From NCBI GenBank assembly GCA_029964075.1, contig CM057136.1, forward strand, positions 806,001 through 870,000: a stretch of DNA of 64,000 nucleotides. Reading direction: 5' to 3'. The notes under the pieces are model-generated. The model made no database searches and was not told the origin of the DNA. It saw nothing but the letters and a program-made list of their open reading frames with translations. This DNA is from Patiria pectinifera (lineage: Eukaryota > Echinodermata > Asteroidea > Valvatida > Asterinidae). The translations under genes and the position numbers were made by a program. Of this stretch, positions 34,861 to 64,000 are shown one piece after another; the stretch's first letter is position 1; each line of letters starts with the position of its first letter.

Positions 34861-37626
34861 ATGGCCAAGTTTATTCTTGGAATAAGCCTGTTCTCGGTGC
34901 TTCTTTTGACGGTGTCAGCTCAGAAGCCGTTGTTTTCGACAGAGACTGGGTATGATTTGTCTTTGAGTTATCTGAATTGAATCAACGTACCCTCTCCTGG
35001 CAGATAGCTTGCGCGGGCTACTGGCGGCTCTGCACCCGAGGGGTTGAGAATTGCAGTACGGTCGGTTCGAATGTAATTTATCGTGAGGGTACTAGCTTCC
35101 CCAACGAGGCGGATGTTGCGGCACTGAACACCCTTCAGAATAAGTTGCGATCGCAGACGATCAATCCAACCTTTCGATTCCTGTCTCAGATTCCCTCCAG
35201 CCGAATCCCCATCGCTAGCGCGGGGGATCTGGCAGAGTTTGGCCGGCGTGAGATACAAGAACTTGCCACGCATCAAGACCCGATTTTCTGAATTCTTCCT
35301 ACCCTGACATCGATTTGAGTAGGTTCAGTTTCCAATCTACCAATGGCTCTAGCAGCATCGAGAGCGCTGTGGCGTTTGCTCGGGGACTTGTTGGGTTGAA
35401 TCAGATATGTGAGACCCTCTCAATGGAGGGTAATGTCACTGTTACCTGCTCGGAGAACAGCCGCTTTACCTGTTTTGTAACCCCAACCTCTGCCTTCATT
35501 TCTCACGACCCGGCCGACATGGACTCCTTACTTCGCCCTACGACACTCCGAGTCGGAAATTATGCTTGAACGAGGTCAATAAAGGGAAGACAGACCAAGA
35601 GGTTATGAGGTTTAAGATGAGTAGGGATGCAAGGCAACTCCGAGACCGTATCGCCCAGAAAATGTCCATGCCAGGTTCACGGCAACTGTTCAATATCTCT
35701 GGAGGTAAGGGCTTATAGGACTTTGCAGACTTTTAGAAGGGCCTATGTTTGGAGTGCTAACTTGCAACATTTTATATTGGGTTTTGCCCTTCGCCGGCAA
35801 TACAAAATTTACATCTTCCCGATGCAAATACCATTATAAAATGAGTATCTTGCAAAAGCTCAAAACTCAAATCTTGTAGGGATAATGTAGGTTCGTTTAC
35901 TTTTCATGCATTTGTTCGTTTCATTAAAAACACCCCAAATCCAAAGAAGAATGTTCAAAACTTTACCTGTTGAAGTTTCAATAGCAAACTGTCGCGTATT
36001 TTCATTGGTTGTAAAAATGAGGCCTGCGATTTTTTTTTAACATCCTAGATGCTTTTAACACTAATTGCACCGCACCAAAGAAGCTGGTTGCCGACTGATT
36101 TTTATTATCCAGGAGAAATTTCAATGCCTTCGATGCTTTAATTGTGTTTGGGGAAAAAGGTACTCAAAATCCGACCATGGACAATTTTGAAATTAGCATC
36201 ATTTCCGGACAGGTATCGATTCTAAAATAATCTCTTGCACATGATTGTTTCAAATACAACTTAACTTGAAATTAATTGAACTGATTATAATCCATGTGTA
36301 GACGAGGTGCAACTTTTGGCCAAGATTTGCGGCTACCATCTGGCAATGTTCAACGACAACAACACCTGGTGCCGACTGTTTGACTATGAAGACCTGAACG
36401 TGGCCGAGTACCAGCGGGAACTGGGTCACTACTGGAACGAATCCTACGGGTTTCCCATCAATTCAATGGCAGCCTGCCCACTCATCAATGACACGCTGGA
36501 GTACTTTGACCGGTTGGCGGCCAGGGGAGCTGGGTCTGGAGCGAGGTAAGAAAGGCCCAATAGACCTTTATCATACTGCCACCATTTCAGTCATGTTCCC
36601 TGTATCCAATAACAGTACTGAATGATATTTGTTTTTGTGCAAAAAAAGGAACCAGACTGTTTGTCCTTCTAGCCTCGCTTTGGTTACGTTGATATGAATG
36701 GGAAAAAAATCAAGATGGCCACAACATGATAATGAGCTATAGCACCTGTGGAACGGAAGAGCTGATACTTGGCTCATCTGGGCTTTATTGAAGTCAATTA
36801 TTGTATGGCTTTATAGTCTTTGTCCAATTAAAAAATAAGAGTGATGTTGTATCCTTTATAATTTACACTTCCCTGTCAAGCCCCAGTGGTGGTTGAGGGC
36901 GCTATCTATCCACAAGACGAATCAAATGAGCATTGGGAACTTTGACACTCAAGACGAGACGAGAACTTCAAAGTGTAGGCCTACCCGGGCGGGCTATAAT
37001 TATTCAAGCTAGTGCGAATTTGAAAGTACATTGTGTATGCACAGTGTCTACAATCTTGAATAGTGTTCCACTCCAGGGGGTTCATTGGGTCGTTATACTG
37101 ACACACGCTTTGATTGGTCAAAATCTCTAATTCAGTGATAGTGATGGTCAAACTTTCTTCCAATTACAGCCTTCCTCTCATGAGCTTCAAGTTCACCGAT
37201 GAGAACACTCTCATACGGCTGGTTAGGGGTCTGCTGGGCATAGCCAAAGACCCACGCCAACTCGGATTTGGTAACTACGCCCAGAGTCGCAACCGTCAGT
37301 TCCGCACGGCTAAGATGGCACCTTTCGGAGGCAATCTGGCGCTCAACCTGTTCCGCTGCGAGCAACCACAAGTGCTGTTCTTCAACGACCAGACCTTCCG
37401 AGTGCAGGTGCTGCTCAACGAGCGTCCTATCAACATCACCTTCTGCCAGGATGCCTTCTGTGATCTGGAAGACTTCAAGCGAGAGTTGATGGCCCAGGCT
37501 GGGCAGTGTCAGTTCCAGGAAGCTTGCAACGTGGCATTGGGGCGGAATCCTGACGGGACATGGCCTGGAAATACAGGTGGAGGGGGGGAGGTGATGCTTC
37601 CGGTATCACACCTTCGCGGCTGCTGA
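34861..37626 (+). pseudogene. MINPP1-like gene, frameshifted (copy A)
   Basis: Same three-exon gene as at 54023-56854, with exons at about 34861-35704, 36302-36545 and 37170-37626. It starts with the same signal peptide (MAKFILGISLFSVLLLTVSA), but relative to copy B exon 1 lacks one T near 34957 (early stop), one G near 35043, two bases each near 35269 and 35293, and one T near 35540. Exon 3 has a GGG insertion near 37227 (LVRGLLG instead of LVSLLG) and indels in the Gly-rich tail that shift the end to VSHLRGC. Exon 2 is the same length and open. The many scattered one- and two-base indels without matching amino-acid change look more like poor consensus sequence than like an old pseudogene, but a real null allele cannot be excluded from sequence alone. 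Confidence 0.75.
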
Positions 37627-40600
37627 TAGCCTACTGCAATGATGGCGATGGCTAAAAGGAGTATCCATGGTTTATAGATAGCTTACAACGGGTTTTCTAC
37701 TTATACTGTTTGTTGGTAAAGTTATATTAACAAGTTAGTAACACACTTTATTTCACGGGGGCGCTCTTCGCATATACCATACCGTTTCGCTCGTACTCTC
37801 ACTACTCTATTCGTAAAGGGTAGGCCTATTACTGGTGTGACGATAAATGTCTTGGTATCCCACTGCCAATACAGGATAGATTTTACTTAATGAGTGACAT
37901 TGCTCGTCCCATCCACCCTCAATAGTATCCAAGGACGCTGGCGATGTCTTCGAGCTCTATCTCATTGATGGTTAGGGTCAGTATTTCTACGTGCATAATA
38001 AACCATCCGGTTCGTTACTGTGACGTCAACTCCAGCACTGTCTGCACGATTTGAACCGGAAGATAACGCAGCTCGAGCGTTTGTAGCCAATGGACACTAG
38101 TAATCAGTGGTGTGCGCGTGTATGACGGTTTTACTAACGAACCGGATAGGCACACAATGCGCGTGCATTGATAATGGTGGTGAGATACCCACAATGCTTT
38201 GCAAAACCTGCACTTCCTTCACACAAAAAGTTAAAAGGGTTTGTCGGTCACCAGTGCCGGTTGGATAGGGGTGCGGTGGTCACACGAGGAAATTGCGTGG
38301 AGGGTACGAGCTGATTCCACGTGTCCTGGGATCGAGAATGAGGGCGTCCTTCACATGCACCGTCGCCCAGTTTGACAGACGAGTGTGTTGCAGCGCTATT
38401 ATATTGTAGGGATAGCAAATTAATTTATACTGATCTGACTATCGAGTGCCGTTCATCGGCAATAAACATACATTGGGATGATACATTATGAAAACAAAAA
38501 CATTTGCCACAAAAATACAGGCGGAAACCAGTTTGTGTGTGTGTCTCAGACCTGAAGTTTGACGACGAAACTACTTTTGTTGCTTTGCTATCGGCATTCT
38601 AAGTGGGATACACTCATTGTCTTGCTTTCATTAGTGATTATTGATTAATTAATCGTTTTAGGTTAAAAGGTCAAAACTGACTGAACAACTGATTGGTTTT
38701 GAATTATGTAAATATTAAAGGAGCAACAAATTAAAAAAATAATATAGGCCTTATGGATTGCTATGCTATAGCTGTAATTATTGTTTAGCGTGCAACAGAA
38801 AGTAGTCTGAATAATAGTTTTTATCACGAGGTCTCAGTTCTGCTTCAGGACACTTTGACAAAAAACTGTCCTTTCGCGGCGACATATATTCACTGCCAAA
38901 AAAGAGACAATTCTATAACCTGCCTAAAAACAAATTGCGTAAAACCACAATAGTTAAGAAAACACACCCTTCGTAACAAAAAAAAATATTTGTCTTGGAT
39001 GATAAAATTATTCAAACAAGCAGAGTTCAATCCATTCAATAGTTTGCTGATTACATTGTTGTCTGATACCCGTTGTCATGCGATGTATTCAAATCATGGC
39101 GGATGCCGTGGCATTTAATTTCCACTCTATCCCCCATTCATAAATCGAGAATCAATGCCACTCATATAATCCAATATAGTAATCTCTACTTTTTTTTTCT
39201 AGAATGATTATGACTATACAGTAACAAGTATCTTTTCTCATTATACCGTAAAGATAATATTGCTGAAATAGTTTTGTAGAGAAGTCGTCGATACATGTAG
39301 TTTGATATGCAGGACAAGGCCGTTTTAAGGAGCATATGATGATACCCACGTCACTGCATAAAGGTATTGATGTCTTATGAAAATGTCATGAGAAACTGGC
39401 CTATAATTAGGTTTTTATGAATAAACGATATCATTTAAACTGAGTAAATTTGTTTCCCATTTTATTTTTTTACCATAAGATCAGATCAAAGGGTACTGGT
39501 TGGGTGGGATCTTGGAGGGGGGGGGTCATTTTTGATCTTCAAAACTTGAGCTGTCGGAGCGCTGATCGTTATTCCATTCACAATATTTAGTTTTGCAAAA
39601 CGTTCTTCTACGAGTGAGTGCTATAGGATGCGATTGTGTGTATGACATGATATCTAAAGATGCATCAACTACATGCATTTACGCGGCGACTGTCTTTTAT
39701 TTATTTTTGATAACAGTTTGTCTCAAAATCGATGCTTTGGAAATAGCGTCAGGAGTAAAAAAATGTTTCAACATTTTCTCCGCTAGACAATATAGGCCTA
39801 GGCCCTATGGATTTCTGTGACCCAGCTTTGAAAATCCAAAATACGATTATTATTTTTTAATCTGGCCTAGCGCACATCTTTGAAAGTGCTCATGCAATAT
39901 ATTTGTTTTAATGTAACTTGACAATACATTTGAGTCCTATTTAAAGTTATGTTTTCTTTGTTTTGCCATTTTCAAGGGTATTGTAACTCTCTTCTTGTTT
40001 GTTTATGCTAATGAATTTACATATTCATGAGCAAAAGTGTGATGTCATTTCAGGCGGTAACCTCAATGTTACAGCTAATCCAGTACCAAAAGTGTCGTTT
40101 CATTTCTCATTTTCTTTGCATTTTGCAAGTAAAAAGACATACAAAAATAATATAAACTACAAAAAAGTGTCCAGAATTTTAGATATTTTGCTGTCAAAAA
40201 ATTTCTTTTCTTTGTTGATCGTTGTGTCAGTACATGTCAGTAAGCCAATGAGCAAACTTCACTAATGTTTTAAATGAGCCAATTTTGGGTAAACAGTTAA
40301 ACAGAAAACCCCTAATCTCACCATCCAGTGTCTTCCTCTGTGGCATCATAGCAACAACGCCTCTGTTGTCCGGGAAATCATGGATTAGTTTTTTTTAAGT
40401 TTAAAGAAGCGCACTTTGAACAAAATTAAACAAAAAGGGATGTCAAATAGTTTCATACATCTAAGAAGAGGCAGAAAGTGTTGCACAGGAAATAGTTCAT
40501 ATCATGGACCCTTTAATCCACATAGCCTATAGATTTTTATTGCCAGAAAAGTAGTAACTGATTTAATGACGAAAACTTGCTCAAAATGAAGACATTACTT

Positions 40601-42750: not shown

Positions 42751-43250
42751 NNNNNNNNNNNNNNNNNNNNNNNNNNNNNNNNNNNNNNNNNNNNNNNNNN
42801 NNNNNNNNNNNNNNNNNNNNNNNNNNNNNNNNNNNNNNNNNNNNNNNNNNNNNNNNNNNNNNNNNNNNNNNNNNNNNNNNNNNNNNNNNNNNNNNNNNNN
42901 NNNNNNNNNNNNNNNNNNNNNNNNNNNNNNNNNNNNNNNNNNNNNNNNNNNNNNNNNNNNNNNNNNNNNNNNNNNNNNNNNNNNNNNNNNNNNNNNNNNN
43001 NNNNNNNNNNNNNNNNNNNNNNNNNNNNNNNNNNNNNNNNNNNNNNNNNNNNNNNNNNNNNNNNNNNNNNNNNNNNNNNNNNNNNNNNNNNNNNNNNNNN
43101 NNNNNNNNNNNNNNNNNNNNNNNNNNNNNNNNNNNNNNNNNNNNNNNNNNNNNNNNNNNNNNNNNNNNNNNNNNNNNNNNNNNNNNNNNNNNNNNNNNNN
43201 NNNNNNNNNNNNNNNNNNNNNNNNNNNNNNNNNNNNNNNNNNNNNNNNNN
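42751..43250. other. Assembly gap, 500 N
   Basis: Exactly 500 N, a typical placeholder for a gap of unknown size. The sequence immediately left (ending gtagccagcg) matches 61885-61898 in the right contig. The sequence immediately right (starting aaatcatcgccgatc) matches about 23908 in the left contig. So the contig ends overlap each other by almost 19 kb. Confidence 0.98.
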
Positions 43251-43561
43251 AAATCATCGCCGATCATATGCGCGCACGCTTCAAGTGTCAGGTTGGCTCA
43301 GTGTGGAAAGGGCATATTTTTTCATCATTTTGGCACAAAAACCGACAGAATCCACCTATGTTAGTTCCGCACAAGATACGTGAGTATGTCAAGAGATAAA
43401 GTACGGAGTATAGGGGCAAACTGTGCAGCGGTTCTGTGTGAAATGGCTGCATTTTGATGGACGTTTTTGTACTTTATTAGTGTTTTGTGCTGCAGGCGAT
43501 TTTGCGGGCTTCTTGATCTATGAGGCTCCGCTCACGCGGAGCCTCATAGTTCTAGGAGTAG
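43251..43561. mobile_element. Right arm of the hAT-like foldback element (copy B)
   Basis: Matches the right arm of 23517-24211 up to ctaggagtag followed by ATGCCGTT. The left arm is lost in the N gap. Confidence 0.85.
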
Positions 43562-43859
43562 ATGCCGTTAATGATCAACATTTTGCATTTTCTTCAAAAC
43601 AAGAACTTTTCTTTGATTTTGTTGGTAGGCCTCCCCTCTATGATTTTATGAACTGCTTATCCCCGATCCCCGTAACTAAATCGTTGAATCTGATGTGCTC
43701 ATGCGCAGTTGGCAATGGATTCTTTATTTAACTTAAAGAGTTGTTTTGAGTTATGATTCAGAGTGCGACTTATTGAAATTTCACTGTATAAAATAATACA
43801 AAACAGTCAACTCCACCCATCTAGCGGGTGCCGCGCAAACCCGCTGGTATTCAGTAAAT

Positions 43860-44114
43860 GGTAATCCTTACTTTTAGGACACCTCTATTTTTTTAGGAGC
43901 TCTGTTCAAAACTGACTTTTGCAGATGTCTGTCCAGTACCAAAGTGACTTTTGCAGGCTAAAGCAGTCTTTAGAAGTCCGAGAAGGTGGCATTGCCAATT
44001 GTTCAGATGTGCCAAGAAGTATCAGAATGTCAATTTTGAGTGTCATTTAGTCAACTGTTTTGGTGAGTCTTTCCCTTCCTATATAGGAACGGGGTCCTAA
44101 AAGTAAGGATTACC
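43860..44114 (+). mobile_element. 255-bp hAT-like MITE (copy B)
   Basis: Counterpart of 24508-24762 with the same ends and CAGTAAAT duplication; one substitution noticed. Confidence 0.85.
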
Positions 44115-44206
44115 CAGTAAATTGGGTCACCAAATGAACAGCGCCCTCACACATTTTCTAATCACGCTTCACTGATGTTGCTGGTTACTAACAAGTTATA
44201 TTTGTG

Positions 44207-44279
44207 CTGTCTTCAGCTTTTTTTCCGCGGCAATAGAACTTTCTGACTAAGTACTGTTGTTACTTTAAGTTTTCTGTAT
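44207..44279 (-). pseudogene. Dead copy of BLOC1S2 exon 1
   Basis: Aligns without gaps to 24855-24927 but with 11 substitutions in 73 bases. The start ATG is ATA, codon 5 is TAA, a second in-frame stop (TAG) follows, and the splice donor GT is CA. The neighbouring 24.4-24.8 kb / 43.75-44.15 kb DNA has hardly any differences, so this patch is unusually diverged. No other BLOC1S2 exon exists in copy B because the contig starts only about 1 kb further left. Confidence 0.85.
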
Positions 44280-44791
44280 GTTAAGTAGGTCTAAATAAGA
44301 CTACAAAGCTTAAACATCAACATGAACAGTGAAGTTTCAGTCTAGTGTCACTGTGCGGTCGCCGAGTGCTTTTTCTGATCCTGGATAATTACGAAGAGCG
44401 CCCTCAATAGTGGATAGCTGGTGAGGTTGAATAAAGTTTGACACCCAGACTTCTGTTTCCGTCCGAACCAGATAAATGGTTCCATGACATTTCGGGACCC
44501 GATCAAACATGATTTTGTAGTTTTTGTACAGAAAAAGATGAATGATTCTGCTGTTTTGTGATACATGTACCTTTTCTACAGTAAAGACCACAACAAAGTG
44601 TTTGATTTCTAAGGTTCACGTTAATATGAAGATATCTGAGATAAACCTATAACATATAACTTAACGTAGGCCTGTTTTCATGTTCTTTTAAGTATTTAAC
44701 AACATTATATTTAGAGTGTTGACTTTTCTTGAAATAGAGTTTGCGCATTTTTTTATAGTAGGCCTTTAAATTGACACGATTGAAAAAGGCC

Positions 44792-47700: not shown

Positions 47701-48705
47701 TCCTTCTCTCTGGAAAACAGGTTTAAAGGCATTTTTGGGTTTAGGTTTATCTGTATCTAAATGAAGAGAAGCACTAAAGGGGATCATAGAACAAAAATTG
47801 GGTTGAAAGAGGTTTTTCTGAACTACACAAAGAAAAAGGAATGTCCACACTAGGTATGTAATGTAAACATGGGTGTCCGTCCATGTGTTAGGGCCTGTGT
47901 CCCCGTAGTACATTTTGGTTAGGTTAACTGTTTAGTGCTGTCATCTGACAAGTCAGACTTCACTCTCACCCAAACTTCGTGACAATAATCTTTGGGAGGG
48001 GGACTTCAGATGACTTGAGACATTTGAGGTCAAATATCTAGGGTCAAGTGAGGGCATTACTGATTTTGGTTAGGTAAACTGAAAAGTGTGTTTGGGCCCA
48101 AAAAAAAGTCTCGGGTTTCTGGTATGGAGCTTGCCCCAAAAGATGACTTGAGACATTTGAGATCAAAGGCTTTTTTTTTTTTTACCTGGTTTTCTTTTTT
48201 TTTTGGCTGCAAATGTCGGCTGATGACTGCAAATGGTGCCCGACTAAACTTAGTGCAAATATATGGGAGTCCAGAGAGGCCACATAAATCTTATTGTTGA
48301 TCATAACCCCAAAACCAGTGAGTTTGGCGGTTTTGGAACATCATCTTGTATTGAAAAAAAACTTTTTCATTTTGCCGATGACTTGAGACATTTGAGGTCA
48401 AAGGTCTTCCAGGCTGCTGAGGTCAGGATTTTGGTTAGGTAAAACTGAAAGCTGCAAACATTAACTTACTGTATAAATGCCACTTTGCCAGGGTGATCGC
48501 AAAGTTTAACTGGCGAGATGGTAATGAAATCAAGGATTCCTCCTAGTGCACTTAAAGCTCACAAAACCTATAAGAAATCTGTTGCTATGAAGGACAATTA
48601 AGAAAATTGAAGTTCATGAGATCTGTGGGTATTGTAAATTTCTTCCTTGTGGTTATCTTACAGGCGATATTTCAAACAGCGCAGATTTTGAGAGAACTCC
48701 CTTCC
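44792..48705 (+). CDS. RNF181: RNF181 (copy B), last exon damaged
   Basis: Exons 44792-44874, 45892-45936, 46107-46198 and 46925-47109 have the same lengths and splice sites as copy A and an intact RING-H2 finger (CPICL, CKHDFHPRC, CPVC). Substitutions: D6N, T22P, D/G in YFGGERK, VV to MI before SEDE. Exon 5 (from 48664) carries several indels: after the acceptor it reads AIFQTAQILRELPS and stops at TGA near 48706, instead of the conserved tail ending SMYT. The surrounding intron 4 sequence (48.1-48.7 kb) is also scrambled against copy A, so consensus error is the simplest explanation. If real, the protein keeps its RING finger but has a changed C terminus. Confidence 0.8.
44920..45714 (+). 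mobile_element. Transposon in RNF181 intron 1 (copy B)
   Basis: Same ends as 25575-26490 but lacks the 55-bp insertion and about 100 bases around it. Otherwise similar, including the gtgttgacgc tract near 45538. Confidence 0.7.
46252..46800 (-). mobile_element. TTAA palindromic MITE, copy 5 in copy B, interrupted by a SINE
   Basis: Matches 27029 on as far as the middle of the palindrome (46433), where a tRNA-like SINE replaces about 75 bases. Similarity resumes at aacaggtgcaagccagct (46680). Confidence 0.65.
46434..46655 (+). mobile_element. tRNA-like SINE present only in copy B
   Basis: Contains gttgtgggttcgaacccca, a good box B / T arm (46453-46471), followed by a non-tRNA body (aacccaggtgttaaatgggtacc, ending near ggttctcctttaa). 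Not in copy A at the corresponding place (27211). Confidence 0.6.
47171..47511 (+). mobile_element. Harbinger-like MITE in RNF181 intron 4, copy B only
   Basis: TTA duplications at 47168-47170 and 47512-47514. Ends ggccaaaaaa / ggcc and inner ggtctctggtcag / ctgaccagagacc. Close to 14582-14962 in sequence, absent from copy A at 27950. Confidence 0.8.
48090..48375 (-). mobile_element. Fragment of a 9662-type MITE within the satellite remnant (copy B)
   Basis: Segments of 9662-10030 and its left flank (caccatttgcagtcatcagc, gtctccggtttctggtatgg, aaactcactggtttg) appear in reverse orientation, mixed with satellite pieces (gacttgagacatttgag). Order is disturbed; it may be mis-assembled. Confidence 0.5.
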
Positions 48706-49387
48706 TGACTCCATGTACACATGATGACAGCCCCACTAGTTCATTAATATTCAACAAAGTAAAACTAGAATTGAACGCTAATGACTTAACATGCATTTTG
48801 ACACACCACCCCAGACCTAAACTGGAATATTTGGGAGACTTTTGTGTTGGTACTACGAGGCTTCTGTTGACTTTTTACTCTGATTTTTTACTTAGGCACT
48901 TTGGCCATGTTTTTTTTAACAAATGAGGAATAGTAGTTAGCAATGCCATTTTCTGAATACAACTGCTCGTGAAATCTTAAGCCCAGCAGTGCTTAGTACC
49001 TTCACTTAAATCTGAAAATGAAATTTGTAAAGTGTAATTTTTGATTTGTAACACCTGTAAATGCCAGTTACAGTGGATAAACGTCTGTTTTATATCCCCA
49101 AAATGGTATTGCTACAGCGCCCTCGTTTGTTCAAGAATAAGCCATACAATATATTATTATTAAAAAGAGTTATGAGTATGGGTTCTGCTTTAGGTTATAC
49201 TTTGTAGTTCACTCATCTCACTGATTTATAAGTGTTTTTTTAGAACAATTGGTCATTGATAACACAGATGCAAATAGTGTACTTTTGAATCTCATATACA
49301 GGGTAATGCAGATCCTGAAAATCGCCATTTTGTCTTTTGAGCCCGGGCCCACTCCGCTTTGAATCATGACCTTCTATGGGCATTTAA

Positions 49388-49894
49388 AGGGAAAATACAA
49401 CATTTGCAAACATCAAAAAATCAAACTACCAAATCATTTTGAAATACCTTGCTGGACTGTTAGTGAATGACAGTGTAAAGCATCCTGTAAAATCATGGAA
49501 CCTGGTATACTGTCATTTTCAAGAAGAAGTGGTATTTTTGTATCAATTTCCAACGCTGGTCGGCCGACCAGCGTTGAAAAAACCGGCTTTTTCTAATACT
49601 GGCTTCAATTGACCATCGCACTTATTTGCAATCGATTACACCTATGAGCAGGTACAAGCCAGCTAGACTGGTTCCCTGACCTATACAATTCCCCAATGTA
49701 TGTAAACTGCTCTGTTTCTTCTTATATGAGTCAGGGAACCAGACTACAGGAAAATGATTATTTTCTGGTTTTTATAGCATTTTCGAACCCAAAACCTAAA
49801 AAGTCCAGTGTAACTATATTTGCTATATATTTCCAACCCCCAATTCCATCCATTTCTAAGAAAATTACAGCAAAGCAAATGATGTATATTCCCT
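49388..49894 (-). mobile_element. TTAA palindromic MITE, copy 6 (copy B)
   Basis: Counterpart of 30196-30708 with the same TTAA flanks (49384-49387, 49895-49898). Several one- to three-base indels. Confidence 0.85.
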
Positions 49895-52184
49895 TTAACA
49901 AGTGGTTGCGCCTTACTCTTGCTGTAATTTTTGACAGAATGATTTATAACCGTAATCATCCAAACTCTCCAAGAAACATTCATGTGGGAATATTATCTTG
50001 GTATTCCTCCATGGAGTGATGAGAAATCAGTTGGAAATGGGCTACAAAACAAATTGTACTTCCGACCTTTCACTTCTCTGATTTTCATTACCTAGGTCTC
50101 CTTGTTCGATCAGGCCTGTTTCTCACATCGTTGTACTTGCTTGAAAACAAAAGGATAATAACGCGAAGATTAAGCTACTACATCCCATGGATTGTTGTAG
50201 ACTTAGTCAGGCTTGCCTCGGAGCTTCTGCTTGAATACTCTTCCAATTAACAGTCATTTTAAGAATTCTTTTGGTAAATGATAATGAGCCCTTTAAGTTT
50301 ATTCAAAAGAATTGTTCAAGAGACATTTAAGTCTCTTTTTAAGTTTCGGTTTTTACCCAATGACCGCCACAAAATTATATCACAAAGTTCCATCTCTTTA
50401 CTGAAAGTGCTCCGAAGATCCACATGTATTTTCGATTTTCCGGAAACGATTGCAATTTTTGGCACAACATTTCTCTTTCACGTCATGCAATTCTTCAGTT
50501 TCCATTAATTGAGATGCTAGTAAAAACGTTACGAAGGCCTTTTTCGAGGTGATTTTCTTGAGAAATCAATGTACCAAAAATGATTTTAAAAACTTTTACA
50601 CGCTAATTTTGTTATTCGAGGGATCCGGAAGCGCGCCACTAGGGGTCAACTCTCAGGCTCTGTGTAATGCACCACGACCCCCTTACTCTCCCCAACCCCA
50701 GTCATATCCGTAATGTGTCACCCTCAAAAAGCAAGAAAAGCATACATATGTATGAAAAGTGCCAAGCTCTGACCCTGCTTATCAGTGAATATCCTGAGGG
50801 CATCAAGGAGGTTGCATTAATCATCTTTTCCTCTGCCAGGATGCTGGCATTACAACATCCTGGATACTCTGTGATGACTGCACGTCTCTAAGATGCACAC
50901 GGCCCCAATAGGCCCCCTTGCCTTGCTTCAATAAGGAAGAGCCTTTGATGGGTGTAACCTTTCTGGGCTTTAGGGTCAATACATTCCTAGAAAGTCACGA
51001 AAAACAAAGTCTGGGTTTTCGTTTTCGGAATTATTTCTAGACAATTTAAATTTTGACTGTTGGTAGAATTTTTGCTGCTCCACATTATGGCGGGTCATAA
51101 AAAAAAAAAAAAATTCTTTATTCTTTATTAAAATTGCATTTTATTATTCTAATATATAACTCAGTGGATAGTGAGTGGCTGATTTTAAGATTTCTATTTT
51201 TTTCCTGTAGAGTATCAGTGCAGATCATAGAGATGTAGTAAATTAATATAGCTCTATGGTGCAGATGGAGTAATGTCCGACTTGTATTATAGGTTTTCCC
51301 AGGATATTTTTAAACGTTTATCATTCGAATTCACCGTTTCTAATGTTTAACTTCGTTCATCAATATCGATTTAGTGTAATTCCAATGTTTAATTTCGTCC
51401 TTTGTCAGACATTTCAAATTCAGTTCAAGCCAATTCAAACAATTAGCACACGTTTTCGTCCCGGATCACCTTGTTATTCAGAAATCAAATTCGTCTAATT
51501 GATTTAAACGAGACGAATTTGATCGGCTCTGAATGCGGCCATTCGGCAACAGCTTAGACGAATTTGATCTGTAATGACGAATATTCTCGACCCGCTGACT
51601 AAAGAGGGTGACCAAACTTTGAAATTCAATTGAATTGTAAAAGATTAAATTGGTTTTGTTAAAAATGTTTGAAAGTTTTCTCGGACGCGATTGAATGTTA
51701 GAGTTGGTGAATTTGAATGGAAAACAAATGTTTTTAAAAAGCCGGGAAAACCTACATTATTTATGCATTTCAATTTGAAATTGTGTATTTTTAACTGTGG
51801 TGAATAACTTGTTAAACACGAATGTGGGGTGATTTACAACAAATGTTTCAAATATGGAGTTTGTGAACTTTTTACAGATCATTATGAATAGTGTATTTTC
51901 AAGAGATAAGAAAATGGTAAATTATTAAAACAGAAGGAAATTGTGATTTGAAAACAAAATACAAGTTTGTGTACAAAGAGTTTTGGATTACCTTTTTGCT
52001 AACGATAATTTCAACTTCACCGAGATTTGAATTTTGTTCCCAAGTCGGTCACGTTCGTCCCCGACGCGCTGTATTCAAGCTAGTGCATGCTTGGGATTTC
52101 CTGGGTAGCGCTGCCAAAGTTCCGAAGACTGGATTCGATTCATCTTGTGAATAGCGACCTCTACCGCCGCGGCGCCTTTGCTGC

Positions 52185-52802
52185 ACTACAGCGCGTCCCA
52201 AAATACCCGCAACATTTTTTTTTCGCAAGGCTCTAGCGTCGCCGGTGAAACACGTAGTGCCATTATTTATATAATTTAAAAGCTTGGAATCTTAACTGTA
52301 TTGTGTTCAATAAAGGCATGTCAAAAAACAAACTCAACCAATTTCAAGGAAAATCAATCATGCGCATTTTTTTCTAATGTGGAAATGCTACATCATCTTC
52401 ATGATGTGACAATCTCGTTGCCTTTTACTTTCTGTGTTTCCTATTCTTTTCAATCCATGTAGACTACACCTTAAATATTGTTCTTTGTTTTTCGAATTCC
52501 GAGTCTCTTTTGAAATTCACGTGCAAGTATGTACCTATTCAAAAAGTTTGACTCGAGTTTGCATCTGATGTACCACATCATCGATTTTCTTCGAAACCAG
52601 TTTATTGAATTTGTTTTCGCCATGCCTTTATTTGAACACAAAGAATGTTAAAACTCATTTGAATATCAAAACCAATTCTCGCCAGGGATGAAGTTCAGAT
52701 TCCAAGCTTTAAAATGATATTAAAAAATAATGGCGGTACGTGTTTCCGCGCCGACGCTAGGGCATCGCAAAACAACCTGTTGCGGGTATTTTGGGATTGT
52801 AG
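52185..52802. mobile_element. Foldback element with ACTACAATCCCA-type ends (copy B)
   Basis: Counterpart of 32998-33642, shorter by about 27 bases, with clustered substitutions and small deletions between about 52240 and 52620. The ends are unchanged. Confidence 0.7.
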
Positions 52803-54022
52803 TCGGGGACCATCTGAAATGATAGAAAATCCAAGTATGGACCAAAACTAACAGGTCGCGCACTTTGCTCGCCCGAAGTGTCATTTAGGCCTACACATCA
52901 TCAAGGTACTTCCTTCTGCGGGGAAATCTTGTTAACTTGCCATCGCCATAATTGGTCGCTGTCAACCAATTGCCTGTCTCATTGTTAGCTGTCTATGATC
53001 TGTAATGAAGGATTTCCTACTTGAAATTAGCACAGTCATGTTTCTAGCATGTGAAATTAATACATTTCCTGAAATGATGTTTCTTGAACAACAAGCGTCT
53101 GCGTTAATCAGTAGTCCTACTTCTTTAAAACACAAAACAAAGACATTAAGATATTTAGTGTTGATTTTGTTTGGACTACCTCTTTCAAAACGGCGGCGGA
53201 ACGGTTTCTAAAGCCATATAGGAGGGACAACGTTTCTGAGTGGGCATGCGTCTGGTCAAAAGGAATATAATCAAATGCATGGGGGAGGGGGCCTTTTCGC
53301 ACCCCCACGCTATATCGCCGCCTACGTCCCAAAATTATTCTGACATGCATCCTTGTCGAGATTAGAAAAGTTGGAAAATGCCAAGAAAATAGCGCTTATA
53401 ATCAATTCTTCGGAATGTTGTATATAGAGCCACAACAGGTGTATGTGTAAGTTGCCCAAAATGTGTGATTCAGTAACTTACATAATCTCCTTAAGTGTCT
53501 TTTTAATATTTTATACTAAGAAGTACTGAGCAGAAAAGAGTGACCTTTTAGATGTCTATCTTCTCAAAGTTAAAGCAGAAAGTGCTTTGCTTCTGTCATC
53601 CAAACTTTTGCTGGTCACGCCCTTATAGAATGACATGACTCTAGTGAAAGGTATAATTTGTACAGTACTGTACATGCGTACACATTTCATCCTGCCGTAT
53701 TGTTTACACCCACGATCACTTCCTGAAGGTCGCGCGCTGTAGTCAAGAAATAAGGTCAAGACAGTGAAGTCAGTTCCGGCGGAGCGGATGAACTCTTAAA
53801 GGCTTTCTTCGGTGTCTGGTCATGACTAAGGACTCTCGAATGAATCATCGGGGTTGCGGATGTGCTAAATGATGGCTTGGGAGGTGCCTCGATATCTCGA
53901 GCCGCTCCCTGTTTGTACCCTGCACTCGTCTTAGAGAGTCCGTACGGTCCTCATCCCTTCTGTTCAACGTCCCGGCCTTTAAGATCATTTTCCTGCAGAT
54001 TTTTGTACAATTCAAAGTCATC

Positions 54023-56854
54023 ATGGCCAAGTTTATTCTTGGAATAAGCCTGTTCTCGGTGCTTCTTTTGACGGTGTCAGCTCAGAAGCCGTTGTTTTCG
54101 ACAGAGACTGGGTATGATTTGTCTTTTGAGTTATCTGAATTGAATCAACGTACCCTCTCCTGGCAAGCGCTTGCGCGGGCTACTGGCGGCTCTGCACCCG
54201 AGGGGTTGGAGAATTGCACTCCGGTCGGTTCGTATGTCATTTATCGTGAGGGGACTAGCTTCCCCAACGAGGCGGATGTTGCGGCACTGAACACCCTTCA
54301 GAATAAGTTGCGATCGCAGACGATCAATCCAACCTTTCGATTCCTGTCTCAGATTCCCTCCAGCCGAATCCCCATCGCTAGCGCGGGGGATCTGGCAGAG
54401 TTTGGCCGGCGTGAGATACAAGAACTTGCCACTCGCATCAAGACCCGATTTTCTGAATTCTTCCCTACTCCTGACATCGATTTGAGTAGGTTCAGTTTCC
54501 AATCTACCAATGGCTCTAGCAGCATCGAGAGCGCTGTGGCGTTTGCTCGGGGACTTGTTGGGTTGAATCAGATATGTGAGACCCTCTCAATGGAGGGTAA
54601 TGTCACTGTTACCTGCTCGGAGAACAGCCGCTTTACCCGTTTTGTAACCCCAACCTCTGCCTTCATTTCTCACGACCCGGCCGACATGGACTCCTTACTT
54701 CGCCCTTACGACACTCCGAGTCGGAAATTATGCTTGAACGAGGTCAATAAAGGGAAGACAGACCAAGAGGTTATGAGGTTTAAGATGAGTAGGGATGCAA
54801 GGCAACTCCGAGACCGTATCGCCCAGAAAATGTCCATGCCAGGTTCACGGCAACTGTTCAATATCTCTGGAGGTAAGGGCTTATAGGACTTTGCAGACTT
54901 TTAGAAGGGCCTATGTTTGGAGTGCTAACTTGCAACATTTTATATTGGGTTTTGCCCTTCGCCGGCAATACAAAATTTACATCTTCCCGATGCAAATACC
55001 ATTATAAAATGAGTATCTTGCAAAAGCTCAAAACTCAAATCTTGTAGGGATAATGTAGGTTCGTTTACTTTTCATGCATTTGTTCGTTTCCTATTAAAAA
55101 CACCCCAAATCCAAAGAAGAATGTTCAAAACTTTACCTGTTGAAGTTTCAGCTCAGTGCAAACTGTCGCGTATTTTCATTGGTTGTAAAAATGAGGCCTG
55201 CGATTTTTTTTTAACATCCTAGATGCTTTTAACACTAATTGCACCGCACCAAAGAAGCTGGTTGCCGACTGATTTTTATTATCCAGGAGAAATTTCAATG
55301 CCTTCGATGCTTTAATTGTGTTTGGGGAAAAAGGTACTCAAAATCCGACCATGGACAATTTTGAAATTAGCATCATTTCCGGACAGGTATCGATTCTAAA
55401 ATAATCTCTTGCACATGATTGTTTCAAATACAACTTAACTTGAAATTAATTGAACTGATTATAATCCATGTGTAGACGAGGTGCAACTTTTGGCCAAGAT
55501 TTGCGGCTACCATCTGGCAATGTTCAACGACAACAACACCTGGTGCCGACTGTTTGACTATGAAGACCTGAACGTGGCCGAGTACCAGCGGGAACTGGGT
55601 CACTACTGGAACGAATCCTACGGGTTTCCCATCAATTCAATGGCAGCCTGCCCACTCATCAATGACACGCTGGAGTACTTTGACCGGTTGGCGGCCAGGG
55701 GAGCTGGGTCTGGAGCGAGGTAAGAAAGGCCCAATAGACCTTTATCATACTGCCACCATTTCAGTCATGTTCCCTGTATCCAATAACAGTACTGAATGAT
55801 ATTTGTTTTTGTGCAAAAAAAGGAACCAGACTGTTTGTCCTTCTAGCCTCGCTTTGGTTACGTTGATATGAATGGGAAAAAATCAAGATGGCCACAACAT
55901 GATAATGAGCTATAGCACCTGTGGAACGGAAGAGCTGATACTTGGCTCATCTGGGCTTTATTGAAGTCAATTATTGTATGGCTTTATAGTCTTTGTCCAA
56001 TTAAAAAATAAGAGTGGATGTTGTATCCTTTATAATTTACACTTCCCTGTCAAGCCCCAGTGGTGGTTGAGGGCGCTATCTATCCACAAGACGAATCAAA
56101 TGAGCATTGGGAACTTTGACACTCAAGACGAGACGAGAACTTCAAAGTGTAGGCCTACCCGGGCGGGCTATAATTATTCAAGCTAGTGCGAATTTGAAAG
56201 TACATTGTGTATGCACAGTGTCTACAATCTTGAATAGTGTTCCACTCCAGGGGGTTCATTGGGTCGTTATACTGACACACGCTTTGATTGGTCAAAATCT
56301 CTAATTCAGTGATAGTGATGGTCAAACTTTCTTCCAATTACAGCCTTCCTCTCATGAGCTTCAAGTTCACCGATGAGAACACTCTCATACGGCTGGTTAG
56401 TCTGCTGGGCATAGCCAAAGACCCACGCCAACTCGGATTTGGTAACTACGCCCAGAGTCGCAACCGTCAGTTCCGCACGGCTAAGATGGCACCTTTCGGA
56501 GGCAATCTGGCGCTCAACCTGTTCCGCTGCGAGCAACCACAAGTGCTGTTCTTCAACGACCAGACCTTCCGAGTGCAGGTGCTGCTCAACGAGCGTCCTA
56601 TCAACATCACCTTCTGCCAGGATGCCTTCTGTGATCTGGAAGACTTCAAGCGAGAGTTGATGGCCCAGGCTGGGCAGTGTCAGTTCCAGGAAGCTTGCAA
56701 CGTGGCATTGGGGCGGAATCCTGACGGGACATGGCCTGGAAATACAGGTGGAGGGGGCGGGAGAGGCGATGCTTCCGGTATCACACCTTCGCGGCTGCTG
56801 ATAGCTCTTACTGCAATGATGGCGATGGCTAAAAGGAGTATCCATGGTTTATAG
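54023..56854 (+). CDS. MINPP1-family protein lacking the catalytic histidines (secreted pseudophosphatase)
   Basis: Three exons, 54023-54872, 55476-55719 and 56344-56854 (850, 244, 511 bp; 534 codons), with clean GT/AG borders. Residues 1-20 form a signal peptide (FILGISLFSVLLLTVSA), so the product enters the secretory pathway. The family is shown by blocks shared with human MINPP1: ENCTPVGSYVIYREGT near the pocket, the SAVAFARGL helix, CGYHLAMFNDNNTWCRLFDYED, LGHYWNESYGFPINS, MAPFGGNLALNLFRC and FRVQVLLNE. MINPP1 removes phosphates from inositol polyphosphates. Here the pocket motif RHGxRxP is REGTSFP (75-81), the distal HAE is DEN (375-377), and the downstream pocket Arg appears to be Ser. 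Catalysis by the family mechanism is therefore not expected; ligand binding or scaffolding is a guess. N-glycosylation sequons are frequent. The tail is Gly-rich with RGD (505-507) and a short hydrophobic run (516-527), and has no SDEL-type ER signal. Human length is 487. Confidence 0.88.
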
Positions 56855-57182
56855 ATAGCTTAAGCAACGGGGTTTTCACTTATACTGTTTGTAGGTAAAG
56901 TTATATTAACAAGTTAGTAACACACTTTATTTCACGGGGGCGCTCTTCGCATATACCATACCGTTTCGCTCGTACTCACTACTCTATTCGTAAAGGGTAG
57001 GCCTATTACTGGTGTGACGATAAATGTCTTGGTATCCCACTGCCAATACAGGATAGATTTTACTTAATGAGTGACATTGCTCGTCCCATCCACCCTCAAT
57101 AGTATCCAAGGACGCTGGCGATGTCTTCGAGCTCTATCTCATTGGATGGTTGGGGTCAGTATTTCTACGTGCATAATAAACC

Positions 57183-57327
57183 ATCCGGTTCGTTAGTGTG
57201 ACGTCACCTCCAGCACTTTCTGCACGATTTGAACCGGAAGTTAACGCAGCTCGAGCGTTTGCAGCCAATGGGCGCTAGTAATCAGTGGTGTGCGCGCGTG
57301 TATGACGTTTTTACTAACGAACCGGAT
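57183..57327. mobile_element. Hairpin MITE with ATCCGGTTCGTTA ends (copy B)
   Basis: Same ends and CRE-like word as 38005-38147; several substitutions inside. Confidence 0.65.
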
Positions 57328-60300
57328 AGGCACACAATGCGCGTGCATTGATAATGGTGGTGAGATACCCACAATGCTTTGCAAAACCTGCACTTCCTTC
57401 ACACACAAAAGTTAAAAGGGTTTGTCGGTCACCAGTGCCGGTTGGATAGGGGGTGCGGTGGTCACACGAGGAAATTGCGTGGAGGGTACGAGCGATTCCA
57501 CGTGTCCTGGGATCGAGAATGAGGGCGTCCTTCACATGCACCGTCGCTCAGTTTGACAGACGAGTGTGTTGCAGCGCTAATATATTGTAGGGATAGCAAA
57601 TTAATTCTATACTGATCTGGACTATCGAGTGCCGTTCATCGGCAATAAACATACATTGGGATGATACATTATGAAAACAAAACATTTGCCACAAAAATAC
57701 AGGCGGAAACCAGTTTGTGTGTGTGTCTCAGGACCTGAAGTTTGACGACGAAACTACTTTTGTTGCTTTGCTATCGGCATTCTAAGTGGGATACACCCTA
57801 TTGTCTTGCTTTCATTAGTGATTATTGATTAATTAATCGTTTTAGGTTAAAAGGTCAAAACTGACTGAACAACTGATTGGTTTTGAATTATGTAAATATT
57901 AAAGGAGCAACAACAAAAAAATAATATAGGCCTTATGGATTGCTATGCTATAGCTGTAATTATTGTTTAGCGTGCAACAGAAAGTAGTCTGAATAATAGT
58001 TTTTATCACGAGGTCTCGTTTGTGGACACTTTGACAAAAAAACTGTCCTTTCGCGGCGACATATATTCACTGCCAAAAAAAAGAGACAATTCTATAACCC
58101 GCCTAAAAACAAATTGCGTAAACCACAATAGTTAAGAAAACACACCCTTCGTAACAAAAAAAATATTTGTCTTGGATGATAAAATTATTCAAACAAGCAG
58201 AGTTCAATCCATTCAATAGTTTGCTGATTACATTGTTGTCTGATACCCGTTGTCATGCGATGTATTCCAAATCATGGCGGATGCCGTGGCATTTAATTTC
58301 CACTGTATCCCCCATTCATAAATCGAGAATCAATGCCACTCTTATAATCCAATGTAGTAATCTCTACATTTTTTGTCTAGAATGATTATGACTATACAGT
58401 AGCAATTTTCTTTTCTCATTATACCGTAAAGATAATATTGCAGACATAGTTTAGTAGAGAAGTTGTAGATACATGTAGTTTGATATGCAGGACAAGGCCG
58501 TTTTAAGGAGCATATGATGATACCCACGTCACTGCATAAAGGTATTGGATGTCTTATGAAAATGTCATGAGAAACTGGCCTATAATTAGGGTTTTTATGA
58601 ATAAACGATATCATTTAAACTGAGTAAATTTGTTTCCCATTTTATTTTTTTACCATAAGATCAGATCAAAGGGTACTGGTTGGGTGGGATCTTGGAGGGG
58701 GGGGGTCATTTTTGATCTTCAAAACTTGAGCTGTCGGAGCGCTGATCGTTATTCCATTCACAATATTTAGTTTTGCAAAACGTTCTTCTACGAGTGAGTG
58801 CTATAGGATGCGATTGTGTGTATGACATGATATCTAAAGATGCATCAACTACATGCATTTACGCGGCGACTGTCTTTTATTTATTTTTGATAACAGTTTG
58901 TCTCAAAAATCGATGCTTGAAATAGCGTCAGGAGTAAAAAAATGTTTCAACATTTTCTCCGCTAGACAATATAGGCCTAGGCCCTATGGATTTCCTGTGA
59001 CCCAGCTTTGAAAATCCAAAATACGATTATTATTTTTTTAATCTGGCCTAGCGCACATCTTGAAAGTGCTCATGCAATATATTTGTTTTAATGTAATCCT
59101 TGACAATACATTTGAGTCCTATTTAAAGTTATGTTTTCTTTGTTTTGCCATTTTCAAGGGTATTGTAACCCCTTCTTGTTTGTTTATGCTAATGAATTTA
59201 CATATTCATGAGCAAAAGTGTGATGTCATTTCAGGCGGTAACCCTCAATGTTACAGCTAATCCAGTACCAAAAGTGTCGTTTCATTTCATTTTCTTTTGC
59301 ATTTTGCAAGTAAAAAGACATACAAAAAAATAATATAAACTACAAAAAAGTGTCCAGAATTTTAGATATTTTGCTGTCAAAAAATTTCTTTTCTTTGGTG
59401 ATCGTTGTGTCAGTACATGTCAGTAAGCCAATGAGCAAACTTCACTAATGTTTTAAATGAGCCAATTTTTGGGTAAACAGTTAAACAGAAAACCCCTAAT
59501 CTCACCATCCAGTGTCTTCCTGTGGCATCATAGCAACAACGCCCTCTGTTGTCCGGGAAATCATGGATTAGTTTTTTTTTAAGTTTAAAGAAGCGCACTT
59601 TTGAATAAAATTAAACAAAAAGGGATGTCAAATAGTTTCATACATCTAAGAAGAGTAGAAAGTTGCACAGGAAATATTCATATCATGGACCCTTTAATCC
59701 ACATAGCCTATAGATTTTCATTGCCAGAAAAGTAGTACCGATTTAATGACGAAAAACTTGCTCAAAATGAAGACATTACTTGTAAATACCCTTTGAAATT
59801 CTTCCGCCTGGAATGATGTCGTTCGGAAGAAAATCACGCAAGCTGGTTTTCAAATACTCATGCATTTACTCATCACAGAATCAAGTTTTGATTCCCAAAA
59901 AAGTTTGGCATCAGTACTGCTCCGTTTTCTCAAAAATTATACATGTAGTAGACGCCGAGCTAATCCAACAGGACAAACCTGCGATGGCCATATACCCAAA
60001 TACCTCTCTCGTGACATACTCGGACTGCGTGCCAAATTCCACACTTGTATCATGAAAAGCACAACTAAAATAATGATCCCTTCACCTATCTGCCGTATAC
60101 AATGTAGTTGCGGGCCTACTTTTAGCCAGCAGCTATCCCGCGCCGGGACCCCCCACCCACCCTTCCCCGCATTTAACACACAAAAACCCGAAATAACGTT
60201 AATCAAGCTAGCAGTCCTAAGGGTAAAAAGTATTCAATAAAAACCACTCAAATTATAAACAAAATCAATTCGCAAAACTTAGGGTAAATATTAACTGCCA

Positions 60301-60645
60301 ATTCACTTCGACCGCGCCCATCTTTTCAGTCGCGTCTCGGGGACGTACGTACATCTTCAGTTAATTTTTCTGTACGCAGATTGAACACGCCTCTCGTACT
60401 CGTACTCGTACTCGTAGTAGTAGCATGAGAACGAGATTGCAAAAAGCGACATGAAACCCAGACTCACTGAGGGTTCTTTTGGTACTTTATTGAGTGGTAC
60501 CTGACTATATATGAGATGTGCATGCGTGTCGACCACTGATTTCTACTGTACTACATGCGCGACATTCATTATACGTGTTCACTTTCACTTGAAGGGACGT
60601 CCACAAAAACTCATCTAAACAGCTAGCTAGAGCAGCTTTCGTAAA

Positions 60646-60699
60646 ATGTTGAACAACAGCCTGAACAGTCCGGAGCACAAGAAGCAGAGGATGACAAGT
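60646..60699 (+). CDS. First coding exon of an unidentified gene (copy B)
   Basis: Identical 18 codons (MLNNSLNSPEHKKQRMTS) and donor AGT|gtaagt as at 41481-41534, with the TATA-like ctatatatga about 140 bp upstream (60504-60513). Further exons would lie to the right. None could be identified in 60.7-64 kb. Confidence 0.4.
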
Positions 60700-61024
60700 G
60701 TAAGTTTGATCACTTTTGTGAGATATTGTGTGCGTGAGGAAGGAATAAGTTTGGAAAAGGACGGACGCGTTAACTTTTCGTTTGTTGCCCTGCCAGTCAT
60801 GCCAGTGTGCCACGTATTGTTTTCCCCCTTACTCCTTAGCTGTATTTGTACTGGACCGGATACCACTTGTCTGCTTGTGTCAGTCATACTACTTACTAGT
60901 CCAGGCTAGACTCACACTATTAACTTTCATGACTGGCTCCTTTACTACTGACAGCTGACTTGCATGACTTGCTACAGGCACAGTTGAATTCTCTTGAACT
61001 TTGGTCATGTTTGTACTTGTTATT

Positions 61025-61512
61025 TTTTTTTAAAGATTCCCAGGAACGATTCCATATCTGGCCATCACTTGTCACCCTGTGCACAAACCCTATGAGACTT
61101 GTCTGAAAATTTCTCAGTGTTTTCTCACTAAAATACTTCAATATTTTCCCTGCTAAATGTGACTTTTTAGGAGGCCTGTTATCACTTTCTGATGGCTGAT
61201 AGGTCATTGTAGGTCACTGACATTACTGATGGGAAAAATTGGATTTATGGCCAGATATGAGAATCTTTCCGATTCCCATATCTGGCCATCACTTGTCACC
61301 CTCCATTTTTCCCTTTGGCACCGTATTGTGGTATGTATGGGCATGCGGTCTGAAAATCAAGTGTTTTCTCAGTAAATACTTCAATATTTTCCCTGCTAAA
61401 TGTGACTTTTTAGGAGGCCTGATATCACTCTCTGACATGTCTGATGGCTGATACATGTAGGTCACTGGAAGAAAAGATTATTGATGGCCAGATATGCCTA
61501 TGGGAATCTTTC
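61025..61512. mobile_element. Cluster of GGAAAGATTCCC-type transposon ends (copy B)
   Basis: atctggccatcacttgtcac occurs at about 61055 and 61278. ggccagatatg..gaatcttt occurs inverted at about 61249 and 61487. The unit between them (tttttaggaggcctg(t/a)tatcac, gatggctgata) is repeated, so at least two related elements lie in tandem. Confidence 0.55.
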
Positions 61513-61898
61513 ACATTTTTTTGTGGTAATTCAATATTCTTATACCAAATTAAATGTAGGACAGGATACCTCACTAATATCATCGCGATACTTTATCAGG
61601 ATTCTCATTCTGAAGAGAAATTGCTCACCAACCTTCCTGAGTTGTCACTGTCTTTTGTGTTGTAGCCTTTTTTTTATGTAGGCTACACTCTTGCTTTCAC
61701 ATTGATCTAAAAAATCAGACAGTGGTTTGATTTATTCCATGCACGACGCCTGTGAAGATGGACATGCACGGTTGGCGGGAAGTGGTTTTTACAATGATCT
61801 AAGCTTAGCTTGAGAAACTCCAGCTCCAATGCCCATCGGGAATTCAACATGTAGAGCTGGAGGTCAATGTACATGTACATTGAATTTGTAGCCAGCGG

Positions 61899-64000
61899 TC
61901 TAAAATTGGCGGAGGCCGTGAAATTTGACCTCAACACAGCTGCCGAAATCATCTCTTTTTTTTCGCATTTTAGTCAATCCTTTGCTTTGTGAGTCATCTT
62001 TTGAATTGCACCTAAAATCAGCGTCCAGGACAAGTTCTCACCCAGCCGATTGCAGCTACGCGATGTCGTGCACTGAACCAATGAATTATACAATGTAGCA
62101 ACCACGCACGTGTGTGTGCATCGTGTCAACGGTTACGCACTTCGCCGAATTAAAAACGAACTACATTGTACATGTACTAAGGCCAAGTAAAAAAAAAAAG
62201 GTTTAGCACCCCCGCCATGTAGGACATAATTCTTCCAAAATTGTTAAAAATTAATACATGCACTTCAGGATATAGGGGCCTAACAGATGGTATTGTGCAG
62301 TTTTTGTCTTCAAAGATGAAGTATGTACCCAGAAAATAAACTTCAAATTTCGAGGAGAACACCGTTTACCCAAATTTCGTTTTTAATTAGGCTTTCATTA
62401 AGAAGTTTTAGACAGATGTGATCCCGAACTGATGAAACAAAAGCGACTTTTCATTGTTCATTTTAAAGCTTAAGATATTGTGCTTGGTATTAACAGGGTT
62501 ATGCAGTTATTACTTATAAGAATTCATAAATAAAGACCAAAAACGTAGACTCATGAACGTTCAAAAATAAAATTAGCTTGCTTGACTGACTTTGACACCA
62601 GATCGGGCGCAGAAAGCCATGCAAATCTGAAAGCCGCCGCGCGCAGGGGTCTTTGTTGACAAGCATTCAAGGTGGTACTTGCCACCAGTCACATGCCAGT
62701 ATGGGCCGTTATCACGCGTCTAGACTCGCACACTGTACAACTTTCATGACTGGCTCCTTTAGTGACACCTCAGACTTGCATGACTTGCCACAGTTCAACT
62801 CTCCTGAACTTTGGTCTGTTGGTCGGGTACGACTCGTGTTTGTATTTTTTTGTCAAGTTTGGTGTTATTCAATATTCTGACACGAAATTAAAGGTCACTG
62901 TACCACTAAGTACAAGGGACATGAGCAAGGATCCCTGTTCTATTCAACTTTGCCCCACATCACTTTGCCCCAGTAGTTAACTTTGAACACATGCCTGGGT
63001 GATACCCTGGCCAAAAAACTATCGGGTACATGTACCGGGCTCTGCTTAACCGGAGCCCCATAGTTCTAAGGGTACCTAGGTGACAGAACTTCATGACTCA
63101 TGAGAAAAAGGTTCAAAAGTCAGTAATGTATTAATTTTTTCCCACATCCCTTTAATAGAATTTCGGCTGAATATCGACCTTCCGAATTTGAAAATCTGAC
63201 TTTGACTTCAATTATAGTAAATAAAGTTCCGAACTTTTAGACTTTCCAACCTACAGTATTTTGGAAAATTGACTTTAGCCGTGTTCCCATTGGACTTTTT
63301 TTGGTTAAAGTACCGCGACTTTTTTGTAGAATGACAAAATTAAATCCAATGGGGACACACGGTAAACTGACGTCCCTGTCAACTTACCGCGACCGTGATG
63401 TAAAACTAACAGGCCGAAAGAGGACGCGGAAGACTTCCGCGCAGCCACGGTAACTTAACAGGGCCGCTAAAAAGTCCAATGGGAACGCTCCGCGCTGTAA
63501 ACCTACCGTGTCCACGCTGTAAAACGCTATGCAAACAACAACATTTCCTGTATACACAGAATTCGCGCGAAAATGGTAGTATGGTTCCCTGTCTCGTTTG
63601 CACTGATGGCGGTGTGATATTATCATCGTACCGTACACAGCGTGAGAAGCATGCACTACGCTCAGCTGCAGCGCTTTTTTCAATCTCGTCCAGCTGCTGC
63701 AGTTTCGCTACTTTGTTGAGTTGTTTGTAGTACAATGATCTTTGTGTGCCAGCGTCGCGTCGTGTCAGTGTTGACGTTGACGTGGCCGACTAAATTCAGC
63801 GTGCGAAAAATACGTCACAGGCACGTCATATCCCGCATAGGTCAAAGGTGACTGTGCACAGCGCCCGCAATGTGTGACATTCTACCAGTCTCGAACAGCG
63901 AATGAACCCTTCCGTCGCGGAATATAAGTCCAGGTGGGAACGCACGGTAGAATTACACCAAAGCCAGTCACGGTAACTTTCCGCGTGGCCGCTGAAGAAA
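61899..64000. other. Unique sequence right of copy B
   Basis: No gene supported. Contains a relative of the 21181-21700 interior (62048-62155), one end of the ggccaagtaaaaaaa family (62181), a lone tip related to the hAT-like foldback (cggagccccatagttctaag, 63052-63071) and a repeat cluster from 63271 on. Open frames at 63384-63735 overlap on both strands inside that cluster and are probably not genes. Confidence 0.5.
63271..64000. repeat. Inverted and dispersed repeat around gttcccattggac
   Basis: gtgttcccattggacttttt (63273) is inverted at 63468-63489 (aaaaagtccaatgggaacgc). Further weak units are at 63343 (aatccaatggggac) and 63930-63990 (gtgggaacgcacggtag, cacggtaactttccgcg). Probably a foldback transposon running off the window. 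Confidence 0.5.

Follow-up and report, generated by a model that had tools for sequence, protein, structure and literature searches.

In the analysed window, that is, the whole stretch of 64,000 nucleotides, a gene was identified whose product belongs to the MINPP family and has lost most of the family's active site. We consider it probable that this gene is a dead paralog (pseudophosphatase) which arose by duplication of an MINPP gene, and that its product is likeliest an extracellular or surface non-enzymatic binding or scaffold protein. The pseudophosphatase reading, already put forward in the original prediction, is well supported, as only one of the six catalytic residues is left. Judged from the sequence, hydrolysis of phosphate by the family mechanism is very unlikely, because neither the nucleophile nor the proton donor is left and only one phosphate-holding arginine of three remains.

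Sequence-based gene finding placed this animal-type gene (hereafter, the window gene) at positions 54023–56854 of the forward strand, with three exons and 534 codons followed by a stop codon (Table 1). Both introns have GT..AG boundaries and all 534 codons are open, so the three spliced exons and the intact frame stand as described earlier. The N-terminal hydrophobic stretch resembles a signal peptide, which is evident both by eye and from the hydropathy profile (highest 15-residue value, 2.62). At the C-terminal end, a Gly-rich linker precedes a hydrophobic tail with a hydropathy of 1.42, compared with 2.51 in the active-type paralog described below. The description of the protein as secreted thus holds with regard to its signal peptide, but the tail leaves room for anchoring by GPI or within the membrane. 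In Drosophila, the homolog Mipp1 carries a GPI anchor. The window protein contains 54 Lys and Arg residues and 55 Asp and Glu residues, versus 38 and 72 in the paralog; i.e., it is less acidic overall.

Table 1. Features of the MINPP-like gene, its altered active-site codons, and related sequences. Coordinates are window positions unless a contig (C14, C415) is given.
Feature	Coordinates	Strand	Description
Exon 1	54023..54872	+	Signal peptide, mutated RHGxRxP block REGTSFP, mutated second-Arg block STNGSSSIESA
Intron 1	54873..55475	+	603 nt, GT..AG
Exon 2	55476..55719	+	Coding
Intron 2	55720..56343	+	624 nt, GT..AG
Exon 3	56344..56854	+	Mutated HAE block, conserved C-terminal Cys, Gly-rich linker, hydrophobic tail, stop
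Glu76, codon GAG	54248..54250	+	Replaces nucleophile His; His in 60/60 bacterial MINPPs and the paralog
Ser79, codon AGC	54257..54259	+	Replaces second Arg of RHGxR; Arg in 60/60 bacterial MINPPs and the paralog
Ser166, codon AGC	54518..54520	+	Replaces BlMINPP Arg-142 equivalent; Arg in 60/60 bacterial MINPPs and the paralog
Asp375-Glu376-Asn377, codons GAT GAG AAC	56372..56380	+	Replaces His-Ala-Glu
Frame-broken second copy of the gene	34861..37680 (end approximate)	+	Judged to be an unmerged contig overlap
500-N gap	42751..43250	.	Between overlapping contig ends (23907-42750 = 43251-61897)
Exon-3 pieces	C14:28366682-28503868, C415:265381-643114		Loci L029, L031-L037, L042-L049

The assignment to the MINPP family, within branch 2 of the histidine phosphatases, was upheld by profile comparisons. 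Between residues 65 and 470, the profile built from the window protein and its paralog matched one made from 18 bacterial MINPPs (hhalign, probability 98.7%, E 2.6e-16). The Pfam family His_Phos_2 (PF00328) was recognized with 64.2 bits (cut-off 23.6), over profile positions 59–354 only, the match thus beginning past the first active-site block; the paralog scored 119.4 bits. A PDB search with the single sequence of the window protein gave a best match at E 0.26, and among the solved structures retrieved by the two-sequence profile were those of fungal phytases (E 1.5e-12) and, from E 9.9e-8 on, of bacterial MINPPs. A predicted model of the exon-1 part, built with the bacterial rows, was of low confidence (mean pLDDT 58.8, pTM 0.47). 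When this low-confidence model was compared with the PDB using Foldseek, ranks 1–36 were histidine phosphatases, with MINPPs at ranks 1–21 and the flea pseudoenzyme at rank 22, and none of the 75 matches reached E ≤ 0.001 (best, 0.053). The model is consistent with a histidine phosphatase fold, which is no proof of it.

The catalytic centre of BlMINPP comprises Arg-44, His-45, Arg-48, Arg-142, and the triplet HAE, the Glu of which is the presumed proton donor (excerpt of PMC7762957). The corresponding set R, H, R, R, H, E reads R75, E76, S79, S166, D375, and N377 in the window protein, and R75 is the only one kept. The replacement of RHGxRxP by REGTSFP (residues 75–81) and of HAE by DEN was found as described, with the residue numbers 76, 79, and 375 correct, and the suspected change of the second pocket arginine to Ser was confirmed as S166 (AGC), in the same column as the pocket Arg in the fungal phytase alignment. 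Beyond the residues named earlier, the Glu of HAE is also lost (N377). At the distal site, where fungal phytases have an HD motif, residue E376 occupies the position of its Asp; an acid is therefore not wholly missing there, and the nucleophile still is.

For the bacterial MINPPs, a first scan confirmed none and a second gave 61 loci, from which L108 (133 aa) was left out; the remaining 60 were used for the column counts and 12 for the tree. The residues R, H, R, and R were kept in 60/60, in columns unaffected by the composition of the scan query, while the His of HAE (60/60) and its Glu (58/60, with Q in two) were partly favoured by this query, which contained FRFAHAET. All six catalytic residues are present in the active-type paralog.

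The window protein contains four histidines (217, 296, 326, and 532) and no RHG. The original prediction had named a real RHGxRxP elsewhere in the protein, or a missed exon carrying it, as evidence that would speak against the loss. A search of positions 53000–57500 in six frames found none; the one RHG string in this region, RHGLLT, lies in another frame. The three altered motifs are identical in three copies in the assembly and are thus not a base-calling slip.

The active-type paralog is located at C8:16523335–16526087 on the reverse strand, on the same contig as the window gene and about 15.7 Mb from it. Its active-site blocks read RHGTRYP and HSE, the latter with both His and Glu present, and the pocket Arg is also retained. 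It likewise has three exons and similar N- and C-terminal ends, with a stronger hydrophobic tail. Identity between the two proteins is 43% overall (217/509) and 43–44% in exon 1, and all 12 cysteines of the window protein are common to the paralog, in agreement with the predicted retention of Cys. A protein search of the genome, in which the best candidates alone were scored and counts of relatives are therefore lower bounds, revealed no other gene among these candidates whose exon 1 is comparable. At least eight further places on contigs C14 and C415 match exon 3 only, and part of exon 2 lies near four of them; no exon 1 was found at the eight. All eight (16 loci, each place having been fetched twice) read CALSET, with Leu at the position of the distal His, and a stop codon lies within three of these exon-3 matches. 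These pieces are probably relics of the active-type gene.

A second gene in the window was considered and rejected, since segments 23907–42750 and 43251–61897 correspond to each other from end to end, precisely up to the 500-N gap. The start of the second contig (43251) matches position 23907 and the end of the first (42750) matches position 61897, which gives an overlap of ~19 kb. The overlap across the gap doubles every feature in between, the window gene included. When the copy at 34861–37680 was compared with that at 54023–56854, exon 2 was identical at every compared base, and no substitutions were found in intron 2 or in 1,023 bases of the 5′ flank. In exon 1, the damaged copy differs from the intact one by 12 substitutions and 8 gapped columns; in exon 3, the numbers are 3 and 9, respectively. 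We conclude that one gene is present at this locus and was drawn twice by the assembly. In addition, an intact near-identical copy is located at C8:330358–333188, within an inverted homologous block (C8:322.7–353.4 kb), the sampled pieces of which run collinear with one copy; C8:320001–321500 had no match in the window. The near-identical copy represents the second haplotype or, alternatively, a genuine duplicate in inverted orientation.

Several other features were observed in the window. A RING-H2 finger exon is found at 27708 and 46933, one in each copy of the overlap. Positions 28259–29342 hold a tandem array with a 156-bp unit, for which six overlapping register copies were listed, and positions 20424–20875 a near-perfect palindrome with 221-nt arms (85% complementary, 10 nt apart), perhaps a foldback element. 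A dispersed repeat of ~430 bp at ~63267–63700 occurs at more than 20 other places on many contigs with 95–99% identity. A search for COX1 in the whole assembly gave no match at E ≤ 0.001; thus, a mitochondrial contig is probably absent from it.

Constraint on the window gene was assessed indirectly, from its divergence. Compared with the paralog, 76% of the 93 shared fourfold-degenerate sites differ, i.e., they are saturated, and dN is 0.57; NG86 yields no pairwise dS and ML gives 18.8 (saturated), so dN/dS is unusable for this pair. In neutral-decay simulations started from the coding sequence of the window gene (2,000 runs), 0.85% of the runs were stop-free at 0.1 changes per site, 0.05% at 0.2, and 0/2,000 at 0.5. 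The window gene and the copy at 330 kb of C8 differ at 3 of 1,605 exon positions and at 27 of ~3,397 noncoding positions (p = 0.009), and there is no exon indel. The three exon differences (V13L, A340V, and one silent, at S338) are too few for pN/pS. A plain pseudogene, against which the original prediction had also decided, appears unlikely because the frame is open despite saturated silent sites and the exons vary less than the noncoding DNA.

On the tree with 12 bacterial MINPPs, the branch of the window protein is about four times longer than that of the paralog (1.12 vs. 0.26), and the paralog is nearer than the window protein to all 60 bacterial MINPPs. Losses at family-conserved columns numbered 16 in the window protein and 3 in the paralog at the 80% level (p = 0.004), 9 and 3 at the 95% level (p = 0.15), and 32 and 22 at the 40% level (p = 0.22). 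The excess of losses and the long branch fit weak constraint as well as new function. The loss of five of six catalytic residues differs significantly from the retention of 12/12 cysteines (p = 0.0007); relative to the general identity of the pair (217/509), the catalytic losses are not significant (p = 0.25). At bacteria-conserved columns where the paralog agrees, the window protein keeps 19/28 (95% level) or 24/40 (80% level) residues, and the catalytic retention of 1/6 compares with these at p = 0.06 and p = 0.08, respectively (overall range, p = 0.06–0.10). Loss of the active site in preference to the rest of the protein is only suggested by these values. On the whole, the sequence comparisons fit a gene under some constraint whose function is new or reduced.

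The long branch and the extra losses at family-conserved columns would also be expected if the window gene were a decaying duplicate, whose function was lost after the active site had gone and whose frame is open by luck, and decay does occur among copies of this family, as seen from the exon-only relics of the sister gene at other places in the genome. Such a course is nevertheless unlikely: the open frame, the splice sites, and 12/12 cysteines are kept at saturated silent divergence, the exons vary less than the noncoding DNA between two assembly copies, and in the neutral simulations the frame seldom survived above 0.1 changes per site. A loss of function may have been recent. An artefact, in which a wrong gene model, a missed exon, or a sequence error makes the loss, is practically negligible and was already largely refuted. 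Although the assembly is mis-joined around the locus and indels abound in one copy, the motifs lie in continuous exons, in register with the paralog and the bacterial MINPPs, and read alike in three assembly copies.

The inositol-phosphate binding proposed in the original prediction was not supported for the old pocket: Ser stands in for Arg-48 and Arg-142, acidic residues have taken the place of both His, and the anion-binding site is gone. As the phosphate-gripping residues have been lost, two of them to acids, the old site is unlikely to hold an inositol phosphate. We regard a pseudophosphatase that still binds inositol phosphates there, as a sink or a receptor, as quite improbable. The fold is probably kept, Arg75 is retained, the whole protein is less acidic than the paralog, and the BtMINPP mutant E325N, with Asn at the position of N377, was solved with InsP6 bound, according to the title of entry 9qz0; against this, positive charge has been removed from the place where phosphate sits in BlMINPP (PMC7762957, in excerpt). 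Inositol phosphates may be bound elsewhere on the protein, outside the old pocket. The change of both His to acidic rather than random residues, together with the alignment of E376, could also be read as a rewired enzyme, in which E76 and D375, along with E376 where HD-type phytases have their Asp, make up a new acid or metal site and support a different catalysis. However, only two replacements are involved and the exon-1 model is unreliable (mean pLDDT 58.8), which makes this reading highly improbable. A His mutant of rat fructose-2,6-bisphosphatase, cited in the excerpted text of PMC10728186, had its activity reduced less than tenfold; the loss of His need not abolish activity, and this counts against an inactive window protein.

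Our preferred reading therefore remains a pseudophosphatase derived by gene duplication. An active-type MINPP gene would have been duplicated, with the sister copy remaining on the same contig. Both catalytic His, the first being the nucleophile, would then have been lost from the other copy together with the proton-donor Glu and two of the three phosphate-holding arginines, with the disulfide framework and the open frame retained. The product would be an extracellular or surface-held putative binding or scaffold protein performing no chemistry, and its old cleft or a new pocket would take a ligand other than polyphosphate. Such a non-enzymatic role is conjectured by analogy with known systems; dead enzyme relatives often become binding proteins or regulators. 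The acidity of the replacing residues is a weak hint that the ligand is a cation and not an anion. That the charge-inverted pocket (Glu and Asp for His; Ser for two Arg) binds a cation, whether a metal ion or a small amine, is rather unlikely; if true, the window protein would be an extracellular receptor or scavenger of cations or amines, derived from an MINPP and of a kind absent from the literature found. If the window gene is real and conserved, an active-type and a dead MINPP would be paired in one animal-type genome, and this would offer a direct test of the capacities of the extracellular MINPP fold without chemistry.

In comparison with the MINPP1 family (BlMINPP, BtMINPP), the window protein has in common the overall sequence over residues 65–470, as well as the F[KR]F...T block and the N-E block near the C terminus. 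It differs in that five of the six catalytic residues are replaced, so that phosphate hydrolysis would not be expected. No pseudophosphatase of the MINPP group was found in the open-licence papers searched, whereas dead branch-2 histidine phosphatases are already known from flea saliva. The nearest precedent is provided by XcAP-1, -2, and -3 of Xenopsylla cheopis (8gdl), described in the excerpts as acid phosphatase-like amine and leukotriene scavengers. The XcAP proteins are of the prostatic-acid-phosphatase type, unlike the MINPP-type window protein, and their ligand binding was measured, whereas that of the window protein is putative. According to the excerpted text of PMC10728186, both His are replaced in the XcAP proteins, by Gly and by Ser or Pro, in contrast to the Glu and Asp of the window protein; they have no pNPP activity and bind serotonin, histamine, or leukotrienes at nanomolar levels. 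Like the window protein, the XcAP proteins are branch-2 relatives with both His replaced; they are secreted, as the window protein may be, and were duplicated from active enzymes (PMC10728186, in excerpt), as is probable for the window protein.
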